From positions 130,018,295 to 130,082,294 of the forward strand of contig CM060977.1 of the NCBI GenBank assembly GCA_030765065.1: a stretch of DNA of 64,000 bases, written 5' to 3'. Source of the stretch: Deroplatys truncata (lineage: Eukaryota; Arthropoda; Insecta; Mantodea; Mantidae). A program made the position numbers and the translations under genes. The notes below the pieces were generated by a model. The model saw only the letters and a program-made list of their open reading frames with translations. It had not been told where the DNA came from and searched no databases. Every line of letters begins with the position of its first letter. Position 1 is the first letter of the stretch. Positions 3,007 to 49,100 of the stretch are shown here, piece by piece.

Positions 3007-5705
3007 AATGCCTTTCAAATGTTCAGTACCAGGTTGCAGATCAAATCTGCTTAAGGTTTCCAAGAGATGAGGAACGACGAAAATTATGGCTAAGCAGAAT
3101 ACGCAGCAGAATTTTGAGTTCACTGAAAATGCTAGATTCTGCATTAGACACTTTCCAGAAGAAATGGTTATTCGAGAGGACAAATGGCAGGATAAGTATT
3201 GACGAGTGCATTTCATTCCGCGTGCTAATCCTTGCCTTACTGATGATGCTTTTCCTACAGTTGTTAATGAAAGTACACCCCACTTAAGCTTTTCACTTCC
3301 AAAGAAAAGAAGAACAAGAGAGGAAAGGGAAGATGAAGCACTTCAAACTGCTCTGGATCAAAGTTTAGCTATCTGATAAGGAATTAGAAAATAACAAGTT
3401 ACTCACATATGAAGAGGAAACCGTTTATATAACAAAATGTGTGAACGAGAGAAAATATTGTGCACTTTCAATTAGTGTTAGTGCTATTACAGAGGTAAAA
3501 ATAAATACAGTATCAGTGCCTTATGTTGCTAGTAGTTTTTTGGTTTCTAGTGATAAGCATTTTACAGTGTATATAGACAAAGAACTGAATCCTAATGGAC
3601 TGAATCTTGAATTTAGTGTTATCTTGGAGAAATCTCAGGTGGATGCATTATTTGAATTGTGTAGTGTACCTTTGTCAAGCTGTAAAGAAAGTAAACTTGC
3701 TGCAGCAGTGAAATTGTTAAGAGCACATGAGGTGCTAGATGCTGGTAAAAAAGTGAGGTTAAGTGTCCTTACAGAGCAGATAGAATTATTCTCCTTTAGG
3801 AAGGAAAGGTACAGATTTTCATCAGATCTTCTTACGTTGGCTCTGAGAATGTTCCCGATATCTCCTGCATGTTACAGAACCATACGTCAGTCACAGGTAC
3901 TAACTCTTCCACATCCAAGTAACTTAAGAAATCTGGCTGCCAGTCTAAATGTAAGTGACAGAAATTTCAATATTAGCAATTCCTACATTGTTGGACGCAT
4001 TTGTTCCTTGAAACGCGAGGAAAGAATTGTTAAACTTTTGATGGATGAAGTTTATATTTCACCAGAGTTAACTTTTAAAGGTGGTGAATTGGTAGGAACT
4101 AGTGCAACAAATACACATGAGCTTGCTAAAACAGCTCAAGTGTTTTCAGTAAATGCTGCATTTGGTACTTATTCAGATGTCATTGCCATTTTGCCAGTCA
4201 GTAGAAATTCTGGGGACTTCTTACATGCTACTCTGAGTAACATTCTCTGCGAACTTGGCAAACTTGATGCAAAAGTCAGCAGTCTTATAGCTGATAATAA
4301 TCAGATCAACAAATCTTTGTTTCACAAATTCACACCACATACATATAGTTATTATTCAGTAGTAAATCCCTTTAGCCAATCACAGCCTCTGTTTTTGCTC
4401 TATGATACTGTGCTTATTTTCAAAAATATAAGAAATATTTGGATAAACCAGAAAGATCTTATATTTAATTTTCCTGATTTTGATTATCCAGATATAATTA
4501 AGAGTGCTAATTTTGGTCACCTCAGATCACTTTATCACAAACAAAAAAGTGAGTTGCTGAAATGTTGTCATACATTAAATGCAAAAGCTGTTTATGCATC
4601 AAATATTGAAAGACAAAAACTGAGTCTGGTGTGTAAAATTTTCAATTATGAAAATATTAATGCCCTCTTAGAATGCAATGATGGTTATGGAGAAACAGCA
4701 GGGTTTTTAAATATTATCCTAAAATGGTGGAATATTGTGAATATTAAGTTTCTATATAAGTATGTAAGGTATAAAAATTCTGATTACTAAGCAGTCTTTG
4801 CCATCGAGCAAGAAGAGTTAATTTTCCTGAATAAAATTTCAGCATAGTTGTACAATTGGAAACGTCTCTGTAGGGGTAATGTATACCAAGGGCTGTCTAG
4901 GCGTACATTTGATGCAATAATGCAAACATGCTCAGGCCTTTATGGTTTAGCAAATAATGCTCTAACAGAATTAAAAGTAAACTATGTCCTTTTTTGCAAG
5001 TTTCAAGCAGATCCTCTTGAAGAGCGATTCAGTCTTCCGGCAGTTGTCTGGCAGTAATTATTGTATCTTTCTCCAACAGCTATATGAGAGTGAGAAAAAG
5101 ATCAGAATTCAAAATTTGCTTTCATTTTCATCAAAACAAGGTAAAATTCCAGTAAGAAGCTTAAATGCGGGTGTAGATTCTGAAAACAAGAATGTTCAAT
5201 CATTGCTGCCTTTTTTGACAGAAATTGAAATTGCAAAACCCGTGAATAATGATGTACCGCCTATCGTGTTTTACATTGCAGGTTATGCTGCTTTCAAGGT
5301 AGCAAATGGTATAATATATCCCAAATGCATTGAGTTATTGATTTTAAATTACACTTTAGAGTATGAATTCGAAGGTGCAACAAGGCTGATTGATTCCTTA
5401 AGTAGAGGTTCTCTAAAGAAACCCATTATATATTGCGTAATATTTGTGTATCCAACTATTTCAGGGCTTAGTCAAAGAGTGTTACGATGATTTTATTAAA
5501 AGCAGTAATCATCTTGCCTAGTTGAAGCATTTATGCAATCCCTATATAGTAAACATTATGGATGAAACCACAGAAACGATCATCAATCAATGCAATAATA
5601 AATTTGAAGACTATTTTCATGATGTATGCTCAATTATTTGCAAAATTATTCTAAATAATTAATCCAAAATGGTGACTGAGGATAAGAAACAAAAGAAGCT
5701 GAGCA
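3007..5705 (+). pseudogene. P-element-like (THAP9-type) transposase, degenerate
   Basis: The N-terminus is a THAP zinc finger. C5 and C10 appear in MPFKCSVPGCRSN, the FPRDEERRKLW motif is near 3060, and C-x2-H appears as FCIRHF near 3145. These three parts lie in shifting frames. From about 3376 to 5030 one frame continues with P-superfamily motifs: LLMDEVY (D codon at 4044), SLIADNN (D codon at 4293) and LLYDTVLIFKNIRN (4401). It is broken by in-frame stops at 4788-4790 and 4845-4847. A frameshift near 5030 leads to the FRQLSGSNY...LYESEKKIRIQ block. A further shift near 5460 leads to the C-terminal tail. Known P-family enzymes cut DNA with an RNase H-fold domain carrying a GTP-binding insertion. 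The copy is not intact, but it is only lightly damaged. Confidence 0.85.
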
Positions 5706-24160: not shown

Positions 24161-24635
24161 TTTTACAACGTGTAGTAAGTAGGGGAAGTATTGCATTCCA
24201 CCCAAAACTTCAATATTGAGATTTCATTGCAAATACATGTTTTGAGGTGCCTGAATCCAAATAAAACATTCTTGGAAACATATACGTGTGTGTGTCTGAT
24301 AATCTGTGAACAACATAATTCAAGTAAGAACGTAGGCTTTCACGGCCGGTGTCACAATTATAACTAATATAATTTTCCGGGCTGTTATGCCGTGGTCTGC
24401 TGACTGCTTTTGACTTAGCGAACACAAAAGAAACTGCCGCCTGGGCCATACAGAAAAATCGGCAGTCGCCGAACATGCCATTGAAGCCGAGGGCGAACAC
24501 ATTATTAGATTTCAGGACACCAACATTCTTTCCTCCATAAAGCATTACCATACCCGGCTACAACGCGAAGCAATAGAGATTTATAAACATCCCAATAATT
24601 TCAATAGGAAAGAAGAAGCATTGAAACTCAACAGT

Positions 24636-26115
24636 GCTGTGCTGTGCTGTGCGTCAGATGGCAGGTTGAGGGCAACCCGATGGTGTGCTTAGGCGTGTAC
24701 CTTCCCTAATTAGGGCTTTACCACGTAGTGACGGGATATGGGGGTTACAGGATGGCGGTTGTTCTTTAGGTAGGGGGAGAGAAAGGAGGTAACAAAGTTT
24801 GTTCCTCAACGGTAGCCGGTCATGGTGCAACTACCCTTGTGCACCGCTGGTGGTATGAATTTTGTAATTATAACATGTTGGGATTTTAATTTTGAAGTCC
24901 AAGCTACTCTTGAATGGATTGTATTGGAGTTCAGCTTTAGCTGCTGTTGGAATTACTCCGCTGTTACCGGATATGCCCGCAAGCCATGCGGGGAAGCCGG
25001 TGATGCCTCAAGCGGCGTATTCTGGGGTCATAATCCCCAAGAGACCTAACTAGGGCGCTCTGATGGTATGGCAACTGGTCGTAAAATTTTGCGGCCCGGC
25101 GCCTAATTTCATCCTCCACGTAAGGAAGAGATGAGGCTTCGTGAAGCAGTCTCACGGGAAAGGAGCGGTTTACACAATAGATGGCCCGAAGGCACCTATT
25201 CTGTACCCGTTGCAGGAGCAGCAGGTTGGAATCTGCGGCCATGCCCCAGATCTCGCAGGCATAAAGCAGGAAGGGGATCATCAGCGCCCGAAAAAGGTGT
25301 AACTTTAAAGGGACAGGCATCTCAGACCCTAGCATCGGGTACAATGAAGCCGCAGCCCCATGCCCCCGACGCGCGACGTCCCCGACGTGTCCCCGAAAAG
25401 TTAGACCCTTATCTAACTTAACCCCCAGGTAGGAGATGGCATTTGTCCATTCTATCCTTCTTCCGAGATAGCTGAATGTGGGGAAGGTTGCGGGAAAGCG
25501 GCGCTTAGTGAAGAGAATGGCGTGGCTTTTTGCCGGATTGATGGATAATCGCCAACGCCTGCACCACTCTTGGAGGAGGCGGAGGTGTCTCTGAATGGGG
25601 TTGAAGGCTCTGTTTGGGTGTTTGCTTGTACAATACAGGAGCACGTCATCAGCGTACTGTGCCATGTTGACTTGCTGCTCTGTGGGTAGGTCGGCCACAT
25701 ATACACTAAAGAGTGTGGGGGATAACACAGAACCTTCGGGGACTCCGCCTCGTATTGGCCTTAGTGTAGATTTGTGTCCCGCAACCGAAACTACAAATGT
25801 GCGGTGTTTTAGATATGTGTGTAACAGGTGTATCAAGTGTGTGGGAAGCTCCAGTTGGATGAGCTTCTTGAGGAGACCCGCATGCCAGGTCGTCGAGAAG
25901 GCCTTCTCGACATCCAGTGAAACCGCGGCGGTGTAAGCCCTGTCCTGGAAGCCCAGGGCAGCCGCTTCCACCACGCGCAGCAATTGCTGGGAGGTCGAGT
26001 GCCCAGGACGGAAGCCGAACTGATGTGGTGGGATGGCTCGAATGTCCCCTAAGGTGGGAGACAAGCGGGTAAGAATGGTCCTTTCAAACACTTTTGAAAG
26101 GACAGAGAGGAGGCT
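24636..26115 (-). mobile_element. Jockey-type LINE, 5' truncated, in a Penelope-like element
   Basis: The insert is bounded by AACTCAACAGT at 24625-24635 and at 26116-26126, an 11-bp target duplication. The element reads leftwards and ends in three copies of ACAGC rather than poly(A). It keeps most of the RT and all of the 3' region. The 5' end is cut at the start of the RT domain, as expected from incomplete reverse transcription. Intact coding and clean duplications suggest a recent insertion. Confidence 0.85.
24964..26115 (-). CDS. LINE reverse transcriptase (Jockey-type), 5' partial, open
   Basis: Open from the insertion junction (SLLSVLSKVFERTIL) to a stop at 24964. Landmarks in order: HQFGFRPGHSTSQQLL (domain 2), SLDVEKAFSTTWHAGLL (domain A with the catalytic Asp of LD), RGGVPEGSVLSPTLFSVYVA (domain B), MAQYADDVLLY (catalytic YADD box), INPAKSHAILFTKR, SYLGVKLDKGLTFRGHV and YACEIWG (thumb). 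The position after AF is Ser where most relatives have Asp. The endonuclease and the first RT motifs are lost by 5' truncation, so the fragment cannot retrotranspose, though no internal stop is present. The Jockey assignment rests on motif style only. Confidence 0.85.
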   Translation of the reverse strand, partial: SLLSVLSKVFERTILTRLSPTLGDIRAIPPHQFGFRPGHSTSQQLLRVVEAAALGFQDRAYTAAVSLDVEKAFSTTWHAGLLKKLIQLELPTHLIHLLHTYLKHRTFVVSVAGHKSTLRPIRGGVPEGSVLSPTLFSVYVADLPTEQQVNMAQYADDVLLYCTSKHPNRAFNPIQRHLRLLQEWCRRWRLSINPAKSHAILFTKRRFPATFPTFSYLGRRIEWTNAISYLGVKLDKGLTFRGHVGDVARRGHGAAASLYPMLGSEMPVPLKLHLFRALMIPFLLYACEIWGMAADSNLLLLQRVQNRCLRAIYCVNRSFPVRLLHEASSLPYVEDEIRRRAAKFYDQLPYHQSALVRSLGDYDPRIRRLRHHRLPRMACGHIR

Positions 26116-26185
26116 AACTCAACAGTAACTGGCATCTAGTCATCAAAAACAAGAAAGGTCATACAAAACCGAAAAACACTGCGAG

Positions 26186-26270
26186 CCAATCAGAAGAGAG
26201 CAACAACACTGCCGGCGCCAGCCCCCTCATACCAGCGGGCCAATCAGCAGAGAGCGCCCACACTATAAAG
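26186..26270 (+). promoter_or_regulatory. CCAAT/CCAAT/TATA block in the Penelope-like element
   Basis: Two CCAATCAG boxes (26186 and 26240), each followed within a few bases by AGAGAGC, precede TATAAAG at 26264-26270. The order and spacing look like an RNA polymerase II promoter. It lies in the terminal repeat unit, upstream of the hammerhead-like motif. The block is still within the open frame of the nuclease tail. Confidence 0.45.
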
Positions 26271-26290
26271 AGAGCGGCACTAACGGGCCA

Positions 26291-26342
26291 GGTGTGTGTG
26301 TGGGTGTGCGTGAGTGTGTGTGTATGTGTGTGTGTGAGTGTA
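26291..26342. repeat. (GT)n microsatellite
   Basis: A GT-rich run with scattered G and A changes, just downstream of the TATA-like box of the Penelope-like element. Confidence 0.85.
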
Positions 26343-26641
26343 TATCATTAATTGTAAATAGTGAAAAAAAAAACTTTCTAAACCAAACAGAAAAAAAAAC
26401 TCACTTATATACCGAGAAAAACTGTTCTCGGCAACTTATGGATGGTTGCCGTATGGTTTTTTTTTTATTACTTAAAAATTAATCTCATAGAAATTAGGAT
26501 AACTGTATGTAATGTAAATTTTTGCCTGTAAGCCGGGCCACTTGTACCGGCACCAGGCCACATTTATTAATAAACCAATCAATCAAAAACCAACGCATCA
26601 GACGCTGCGATACTTTCACCGAGAAGACTTCGTCCGCGCCA

Positions 26642-26676
26642 CTGAAGATGTCCACCGCAGTTGTGGACGAAACGTC
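26642..26676 (+). ncRNA. Hammerhead-ribozyme-like motif
   Basis: The core CTGAAGA (26642-26648) fits the hammerhead CUGANGA box. A six-pair stem II follows (GTCCAC 26650-26655 with GTGGAC 26663-26668) and then GAAAC (26669-26673). The next three bases are GTC, the usual cleavage triplet. One extra T sits between the core and stem II, and stem III has almost no length. From general knowledge, Penelope-like elements carry small hammerhead variants with a minimal stem III that act as dimers. Function here is inferred. Confidence 0.6.
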
Positions 26677-27442
26677 TGGGGAATCTTTCTTCAGCAGACC
26701 ACGGCATAACAGCCCGGAAAATTATATTAGTTATAACATAATTCAAAATCGAAAAGTCAATAAATACCAAACCTGTATTTAAGTTTAGTATCTTCTAAGG
26801 ATGCAACACGAAGATTTTCAAGAAAATCCCCCACTCAGGACTACCTTTTACTTGTAACATTTTTCGAAATTTTTGATTTTCTGAAAAATGACTAAGGATT
26901 TTGATTAAAATATCATATGTTTAAGTTTTTTTATGTCAAATGAAATTTATATCTTGAATTTTCCAGAAATGTCCCTAAAAGTCCTTTTCATTCTGGATGA
27001 CTTTCGCATAAATGGTAAACGTAAAGAGATGGAAAAACTTCTATAACAAAAAAAATGTAGAGCTCGTTAAAACACACAATTTATGTCATACACATTTTTT
27101 TTAGTTGAGTAAACCATTTCCGAAATATTCCTTGTTATTTGTTCGAATTTTCCAATACTTATACTTTTTTCAAATGGGAATTCGTTATTCGTTTATTTAA
27201 TTCCCTGGACTTGCAAAGAGAGAACAAGGAGAATGAAATTCTCCACATAGCAAACAGGTCTTAAAACATTTGACTATAGTTTAAAGCTTATCATATTCCC
27301 CTTGCATCTACAAGAAAATTGGCAATAAATTTCTGCAAACGTTTATCTCGATTAGCATGAAGTAGGTGGAGAATAAGCGTTTGTAAAAATGGTTTGTACA
27401 AGAGCAGAGAAAGTCATGTGAGTGTAAAACATCAGATTTTTT

Positions 27443-47855: not shown

Positions 47856-49100
47856 CACTATGTGATCAAAAGTATCCGGACACGCCTATAAACATACGTT
47901 TTTCGTCTTAGGTGCATTGTGCTGCCACCTACTGCCTAGTAGTCACTATCCGCGACCTCAGTAGTTATTAGACATCGTGAAACAGCAGAATGGGACGCTC
48001 CGTGGAACTCACGGACTTCGAACGAGGCCAGGTGATTGCGGCCACTTGTGTCAGAAGTCTGTACGAGATTTCCACACTCCTAAACATTCCTAGGTCCTAT
48101 GTTTCTGATGTGATGTTGAAGTGGAAACGTGAAGGGACATGCAAAGCACAAAAGCGTATAGGCCGACCCCATTTGTTGACTGACAGAGACCGCCGACATT
48201 TGAAGAGGGTCGTAAAGAGTAATAGGCAGACATCTATCCAGACCATCATACAGGAATTTCAAACTGCATCAGGATCCACTCCAAGTACTATGACAGCTAG
48301 GCGTGAGGTGAGAAACCTTGGATTCCATGGTCGAGCGGCTGCTCATAAGCCACACTTCACGCAGGAAAATGCCAAACGACGCCTTGCTTGGTGTAAGGAG
48401 CGTCAACATTACACGATTGTACAGTGGCAAAACGTTGTGTGGAGTGACGAATCACAGCACACAATGTGGCAATCTGATGGCAGGGTGTGGGTATGGCGAG
48501 TCCCCGGTGAACTTCATCTGCCAGCGTGTGTAGTGCCAACAGTGAAATTCGGAGGTGATGGTGTTATGGTGTGGTCGTTTTTTTCCTGGAAGTGGCTTGC
48601 ACCCCTTGTTGTTTTGTGTGGCACGATCACAGCGCAAATCTACATTGATATTTTAAGCACCTTCTTGCTTCCCACTGTTGAAGAGCAATTCGGGGATCAC
48701 GATTGCATCTTTCAACACGATGGAGCACCTGCTCATACTTCACGAGCTGTGGCGAAGTGGTTACACCGGAATAACATCCCTGTACAGGACTGGCCTGCAC
48801 AGAGTCCTGACTTGAATCCTATAGAACACCTTTGAGATGTTTTGGAATGCCGACTTAATGCCAGGCCTCACCGACCTACATCGATACCTCTCCTCAGTTC
48901 CGCACTCCGTGAAGAATGGTCTGCCATTTCCCAAGAAACCTTTCAGCACCTGATTGAAAATATGCCTGCGAGAGTGAATGCTGCCATCAAAGCTAAGGGT
49001 GGGCCAACACCATATTGACTTCCAGCATTACCGATGGAGTGCGCCACGAACTTGTACATAATTTTCAGTCAAGTATCCGGATAGTTTTGATCACGTAGTG
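47856..49100 (+). mobile_element. Tc1-like element, copy 2, full length
   Basis: 1,245 bp with inverted ends (CACTATGTGATCAAAAGTAT on the left; GTTTTGATCACGTAGTG on the right) and TA at 47854-47855 and 49101-49102. One transposase gene fills the interior. Confidence 0.9.
47990..49018 (+). pseudogene. Tc1 transposase (DD34E) with one nonsense codon
   Basis: 342 codons plus the final stop, the normal Tc1 length. Starts MGRSVELTDFERGQVIAATC. Two helix-turn-helix regions cover about residues 1-110, with a GRPH AT-hook-like motif near residue 60. The catalytic domain has VVWSDESQH (first Asp), FQHDGAPAHTSRA (second Asp) and SPDLNPIEHL (Glu). I count exactly 34 residues between the last two, so DD34E is intact. 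A TGA at 48833-48835 stands where relatives have Trp (HLWDVLE). After it the frame stays open to TGA at 49016-49018, ending KAKGGPTPY. The nonsense codon removes the last 60 residues. Confidence 0.9.

Follow-up and report, generated by a model that had tools for sequence, protein, structure and literature searches.

The window, by which we mean the whole 64,000-nt stretch analysed here from contig CM060977.1 of Deroplatys truncata (GCA_030765065.1), very probably carries, at 26642–26676, a small hammerhead ribozyme of type I that belongs to a Penelope-like element (PLE). Judged from its sequence, the ribozyme lies across the start codon of the open reading frame (ORF) of the element, in a copy that is 5'-truncated and twice interrupted, and its cleavage is predicted. 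Ribozymes of this kind are known. What looks new is that the core holds the ORF start codon and, in most of the uninterrupted copies examined, also the stop codon of the preceding unit. Hundreds of motifs in the genome, a stem II that covaries between families and a start codon (here also a stop codon) inside the core open the way to a direct test of whether cleavage and translation compete. Statements on papers cited by PMC number refer to the parts of their text that were available.

The PLE insertion in the window

The motif belongs to one short, twice-interrupted PLE insertion (24324–26736), the parts of which are collected in Table 1. Its two arms form a perfect 46-bp inverted repeat (24358–24403 versus 26691–26736). 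The PLE tail does not fold better than shuffled sequences (138/500). No part of the element was assigned to the ten bases 24404–24413, between the left arm and the endonuclease piece. Eight other copies of the target repeat are present in the window and were aligned as empty sites; copies lie near 8.6, 22.6, 30, 36, 38.7, 54, 56.8 and 60 kb, and the aligned pieces are 70–89% alike. LINE D, which is nested in the PLE, possesses its own 11-bp target duplication as well as short CACAG-type 3' repeats. We also considered that the left inverted repeat together with the reverse transcriptase (RT) sequence arose by template switching and rejected this, as the 11-bp AACTCAACAGT fits an ordinary nested LINE insertion. 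The initial annotation, made from the letters of the window, had placed the motif ~370 bp downstream of a TATA-like box. The box exists, but this distance results from the 303-nt foreign insert between promoter and putative transcript start and is about 75 nt natively. Trimming of transcripts to unit length, also put forward there, would be a possible role of the motif. Elsewhere in the window, 47981–48835 and 3369–4790 contain a Tc1/mariner-like transposase (HTH_Tnp_Tc3_2, DDE_3) and a TNP-like RNase H transposase ORF, respectively.

Table 1. Positions of the PLE insertion, its interruptions and the ribozyme motif in the window.
Feature	Position	Strand	Basis
Left target-site duplication AACATAATTCAA, within multicopy repeat	24312–24323		same 12 bp at 26735–26746; empty-site comparison
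Inverted left arm: tail, ORF positions +123 to +44 (long end)	24324–24403	-	46/46 identity to reversed right arm; continues as long tail of sister copies
C-terminal part of PLE GIY-YIG endonuclease ORF, 5'-truncated	24414–24635	+	open frame; same protein after GVYRIPCSCGSVYIG in L124
Non-LTR retrotransposon (LINE D here), 5'-truncated, nested in PLE	24636–26115	-	RVT_1 E 2.4e-37; AACTCAACAGT duplication 24625–24635 / 26116–26126
End of endonuclease ORF and promoter-like region: CCAAT 26186, 26240; TATAAA 26264	26127–26286	+	promoter function suggested by motifs only
303-nt foreign retroelement-like insert (LINE A here), (AATC)n/A-rich 3' end	26287–26589	+	absent in native copies
Putative transcript 5' end (CCAACGC...) and leader	26590–26641	+	exact joins to foreign 3' ends, 82 genome places; folding
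Hammerhead-like ribozyme motif	26642–26676	+	cut predicted after C26676; stem II covariation
TGA in core, stop of endonuclease ORF in native sister copies	26643–26645	+	15/19 insert-free segments open to TGA; L136 ORF
ATG start codon, overlapping A9, extra U and G10.1	26648–26650	+	MSTAVVDETSGESF...; position as in PMC11167929
Right arm tail, short end (+89)	26691–26736	+	24/49 module ends stop here
Right target-site duplication AACATAATTCAA	26735–26746		match to left copy

Architecture of the motif

Direct reading of the window gives CTGAAGA at 26642–26648, followed by the stem II strands GTCCAC (26650–26655) and GTGGAC (26663–26668), which form six pairs, and by GAAAC and GTC, the last base of which (26676) corresponds to C17 of the hammerhead numbering. 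The elements named in the initial annotation are thus all found in the order given there, and the core CUGANGA ... GAAA ... NUH of small PLE-type (type I) hammerheads is present. An extra T after the core had been pointed out as well; it exists, but it is the middle base of the ATG start codon. One- or two-nucleotide insertions between CUGAnGA and a stem belong to the known range (PMC10085705). Likewise borne out is the claim that there is almost no stem III: the only candidate is ACGU (GAAACGUC), in which no loop is possible, and therefore a monomer has no stable stem III. The candidate stem I is weak and would comprise CCA/UGG (26639–26641/26677–26679), an internal loop and an outer helix GAAGA/UCUUC.

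Predicted folding of the leader and the motif

The leader segment 26629–26637 is complementary to 26663–26671. In the predicted fold of 26600–26720 alone, these segments pair with a probability of about 1, hiding the 3' strand of stem II and part of the core (GAA), and the probability of stem II is about 0. Removal of everything before 26639 raises the latter to 0.2–0.3, and the hammerhead fold is 10 kcal/mol worse than the predicted monomer fold. Shuffling the 60 bases before the motif restored stem II (mean probability 0.61): none of 300 shuffles blocked it as fully, 37 blocked it at 0.5 or more, and 10 folded as stably. Stability of the whole region is ordinary, as 16 of 200 shuffles fold as well.

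A block that is complete in the model and unmatched by any shuffle would suit a former ribozyme that is now locked inactive by the upstream complementary segment and persists as a relic in the window's family (family 1). We consider this unlikely, since stem II has been kept: five distinct inner segments of family 1 show no more than one base difference from that of the window and can still form all six pairs. The initial annotation had named a stem II that no longer pairs in other genomic copies as grounds for giving up the ribozyme; within this family, no such loss occurred. In addition, a copy of another family (family 3, L140) shows no comparable block. An anti-hammerhead helix as a shared design is ruled out by this copy. 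Within the window's family, the modelled pairing of the leader possibly represents an off-state; it is not evidence for a switch.

Most likely, the ribozyme works in RNA of several units, either as a dimer via ACGU/ACGU or helped by the protein of the element. Transcription would proceed from the TATA box, and in an RNA of at least two units two motifs would join via ACGU/ACGU as stem III and be cut after GUC. Alternatively, the protein of the element would help the hammerhead to fold, as reported for a lizard element (see below).

Start and stop codons inside the core

The sequence CTGAAGATG holds the ATG, which opens MSTAVVDETSGESFFSRPRHNSPENYISYN, and the predicted cut is located 26 nt past this start codon. 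In sister locus L136, an uninterrupted ORF of 864 codons extends from the ATG of the first ribozyme to the TGA of the next core (2595 nt including the stop); AG and the next ATG follow. This ORF contains FDVVSLFT, GVAMGSPLSPVVANFF, YVDD and GVYRVPCSCGSVYIG, which we take to be RT and GIY-YIG motifs. Among the units examined, L126, L131 and L124 carry frameshifts. The endonuclease ORF of L124 ends with ...SPRRLRPRH and the TGA within the core.

The reading frame was followed in 23 segments from the end of the endonuclease to the core, 19 without and four with foreign inserts. In 15 of the 19 insert-free segments of the window's family the frame is open to the core TGA, i.e. UGA-AG-AUG represents stop plus start, and in the other four the length breaks the frame. 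None of the four segments with foreign inserts is open to this TGA, and it is on account of the inserts that the window copy does not reach it in frame. Since the segments are open up to the core TGA, the promoter-like boxes, the putative transcript start and the ribozyme overlap coding sequence in the window's family, and since the core UGA is the stop of the preceding unit, stop and start signals are both contained within CUGAAGAUG. In L140, the single copy of family 3 fetched, the frame stops 24 and 14 codons before the core TGA and the start is kept. The shared stop is therefore not general in family 3, and as far as these sequences go the merging of stop and start into the core is family-specific. 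No description of a shared stop was recognised in the literature searched; the founding papers on PLE hammerheads were outside this search, so the feature may be known. The term 'stop codon' is absent from the main text of PMC11167929 in the part available.

The predicted cut would separate the AUG from the remainder of the ORF. Cleaved RNA would consequently be untranslatable from this AUG, so that cleavage and translation would compete. A bolder proposal, to which we give little weight, is that the core works as a stop-start hinge: in tandem RNA, CUGAAGAUG would provide a stop and the next start two bases on, the same nine bases would be contested between termination-reinitiation, and translation in general, on one side and ribozyme folding and cleavage on the other, the complementary leader would be an off-state opened by ribosomes or the element's protein, and RNA would be sorted into message versus template.

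Stem II covariation across the genome

The genome (4.29 Gb, 818 contigs) was searched for related motifs. A similarity search yielded 267 first-look candidates, 40 of which were scored, and 30 loci (L094–L123) ranked by similarity to the motif region. The core is kept in 32 of 34 modules of these top-ranked loci; it is changed once in L097 (GTC to ATC, giving ACATC) and once in L117 (CTGA to CTAA), and the other arm is intact in both loci. Seventeen further stretches were fetched, several of which are larger views of loci already in the set. The pattern CTGANGATGGN{8,24}CGAAACGTC matched 544 places in the genome, and the reversed pattern used as control matched none. Among 100 matches listed of the 544, at least three further stem II types are found, namely GGGAG/CTCCC, GGGAACG/CGTTCCC and the bulged GGCAAC/GTTGRCC, versus GTCCAC/GTGGAC in the window.

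Covariation was assessed in 43 distinct 35-mers, of which five belong to family 1 and 38 come from the 100 matches listed of 544; five distinct 34-mers were dropped. Changes on both sides occur in five of the six stem II pairs. Stem II cells are paired in 77.1% of cases as compared to 64.6% after shuffling, 39 versus 17.9 cells show both-side changes, and the covariation score is 0.374 versus 0.163; not one of 500 shuffles reached any of these three values. Two of five measures were not above shuffles, i.e. the number of both-side pairs (5) and of further types (11), which were reached by 240 and 115 of 500, respectively. When the alignment was slid, at most 53.1% were paired and the covariation was at most 0.240. 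A smaller set of 38 sequences gave the same outcome. These figures have to be read with regard to three points: 29 of 43 sequences lack the sixth pair because only five are formed in the commonest stem II type; the search pattern prescribed the core as well as the first stem II pair, and therefore invariance there proves nothing; and related sequences can beat shuffles without structure. Taken at the level of sequence comparison, stem II is supported by covariation between families.

The same data bear on the idea that the motif is protein-coding only, in which case M-x6-E-T-S would fix GAAACGTC and the length of 35 nt, and the hammerhead look would simply follow from the code. Indeed, GAA ACG TC reads E-T-S, 38 of 43 distinct inner segments typed are of frame-keeping length, as are four further distinct ones from the matches listed, and N-termini such as MSTAVVDETS, MGEMYAPETS, MGTMYVPETS and MATTELTETS share this ending. 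Nevertheless, coding leaves unexplained why paired bases change on both sides between families, and in L140 CTGANG is found upstream of the ATG, although the ORF there stops 24 codons earlier (CTGANG was required by the search pattern). We regard a purely coding origin as improbable.

Identity of the element and ends of its cDNA

That the small, stem-III-less hammerhead-type motif belongs to a PLE, as initially proposed, agrees with the promoter-like pseudo-LTR, the tail, the inverted arms, the target duplication and the RT/GIY-YIG motifs of sister copies, the latter being read directly in L136 and L124. In Pfam, L124 matched RVT_1 with 26.4 bits, under the curated cut-off of 29.6, and gave no GIY-YIG match; the endonuclease piece of the window gave only a sub-threshold, unrelated match. 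Searches with this piece in IMG/VR, GTDB contigs, PDB, plasmids and phages detected no PLE relatives, and the PLE tail pattern had no match in IMG/VR. A single match of the HPNNFN DNA pattern was discarded, as its translation shows no relative, and the peptide HPNNFNR was not found in the literature searched.

Pseudo-LTRs occur in tandem or inverted arrangement and with a tail. With repeat sequences dropped, 24 of 49 module ends are located at +89, 19 at +123, and six run into the ORF. Insertions with two arms were listed as pairs sharing at least 8 bases (15 rows, three of them duplicates), so that end combinations lacking a duplication would not appear. All 12 distinct insertions listed (window, L097, L099, L106, L117, L118, L119, L126, L132, L136, L137, L138) end at +89 on one side (short) and at +123 on the other (long), and 10–16 bp are common to their flanks. 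Two fixed cDNA ends are thereby recorded in the genome, and each complete insertion listed has both of them. Among four short arms with an inner end in the leader/tail region, one ends at the cut (L119/L129, with 5-nt microhomology), and the others (left arm of the window, L099 and L139) begin 15, 33 and 59 nt after C17, which falls short of a genomic footprint of cleavage. Some copies (in L097, L099 and L119) have lost the TATA box through a 20-bp deletion between GAGAGCG repeats.

Animal genomes widely contain small tandem repeats that carry type I hammerheads (PMC7229834), and a non-autonomous retrozyme or satellite carrying its own hammerhead could look alike; animal retrozymes are short ORF-less tandem repeats, however, whereas the units here are coding, measure about 2.6 kb and have PLE tails and inverted arms, which makes this reading very improbable.

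Frequency of the motif by chance and search with covariance models

On both strands of the window, 26642–26676 is the sole arrangement of CTGANGA, stem II and GAAA when stem II of at least four pairs and 0–2 nt before the stem are allowed. A first-order Markov simulation of 120 windows of 64 kb each, likewise on both strands, produced seven matches with a stem of at least six pairs followed by GAAA and no full form followed by GAAACGTH. By analytic estimate, 0.0003 occurrences of the full form are expected per window. The search with hammerhead covariance models that the initial annotation had proposed as a check gave no support, as no hammerhead in Rfam 15 matched the motif. Rfam was also silent on eight hammerhead candidates from viral contigs that share the extra U and have five to seven pairs in stem II as well as a matching stem I, two of which remained unmatched at E up to 5, and for this reason its silence is weak evidence. 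The motif is short and unmatched in Rfam, yet given the simulated and analytic expectations, the 544 genome places and the covariation of stem II, the probability of a chance resemblance is negligible.

Foreign 3' ends joined at the putative transcript start

In native copies, TATAAAGAGAGCGGCACCAACGG runs directly into CCAACGC (26590), i.e. AACGG is followed by CCAACGC with no insert. Genome-wide, 82 places have no G in the two bases that precede CCAACGC, which read AA (60), CA (14), AC (3), AT (3) or CT (2), and a reversed control of this junction pattern gave 0; many of these places may descend from few events. In fetched loci, poly-A, (AATC)n or LINE D 3' ends are fused exactly at CCAACGC. 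Foreign 3' ends at the equivalent of 26590 are present in the window and in L097, L099, L106, L110, L111, L113, L115, L117, L120, L121, L127, L132, L137 and L138.

The surroundings of these joins vary. In L097, L099 and L106, the foreign piece separates promoter from leader and is bordered by CCAA or CCAACGCA at either end, while no repeat surrounds it in the window copy and L111. In L127, a 3' piece of LINE D is joined at CCAACGC within one insertion that has a single 12-bp duplication and no promoter piece on the other side. The fusions of LINE D and leader in L117 and L127 suggest capture during reverse transcription. For the joins at 26590 there are two readings: on reaching the 5' end of its RNA, the PLE RT jumps to other RNAs at their 3' ends, or the site is a hotspot for LINE insertion.

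Comparison with known systems

Lunse et al. 2017 reportedly described small variants of the hammerhead that are associated with PLEs and are cleaved in dimeric form, and Cervera and de la Pena 2014 are said to have dealt with PLE hammerheads. The small PLE hammerheads of PMC7761336, PMC6155905 and PMC6466107 resemble the motif in their minimal type I form without stem III, in pseudo-LTRs and in tandem arrangement; dimer cleavage is reported for such variants and proposed for the motif of the window.

The closest features are found in the Poseidon PLE of Anolis carolinensis (PAc; PMC11167929), in which the ORF starts at stem II, the cut is located 26 bp after the start codon and the tail is located between two RT start sites, all as in the window's family. 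The commonest RT start of PAc is 111–118 bp into the ORF, and the long end in the window's family is at +123. The host differs, and in native copies of the window's family the endonuclease ORF stops inside the core. According to the same source, no difference in start site was seen between strands, the lizard ribozyme cut only with protein, inactive mutants remained capable of insertion in vitro, and RNA reads starting or ending at the cut were absent.

In Penelope elements of Adineta vaga (PMC3846280), inverted pseudo-LTRs, a TATA box and foreign sequence captured between pseudo-LTRs are found as in the window's family. An optional tail of 31 bp on one inverted pseudo-LTR and target duplications of 8–10 bp add to this resemblance. 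In contrast to Adineta vaga, the sequences joined in the window's family end in A-rich 3' tails at one exact site. The word 'hammerhead' is absent from the main text of PMC3846280 in the part available.

An additional nucleotide in the hammerhead core has also been reported from a viroid (cited in PMC6155905), which shares this feature with the motif, the extra U of which is part of the start codon. Searches with hammerhead patterns matched 74 loci in IMG/VR and 18 in GTDB, all of them viral or bacterial sites with no apparent PLE. In IMG/VR, twelve hammerhead candidates have an extra U after A9 (L026, L032, L033, L036, L037, L039, L042, L046, L054, L057, L061, L065), some of them near-identical. 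Of the IMG/VR loci with a stem II of at least five pairs, 12 of 14 have a matching stem I.
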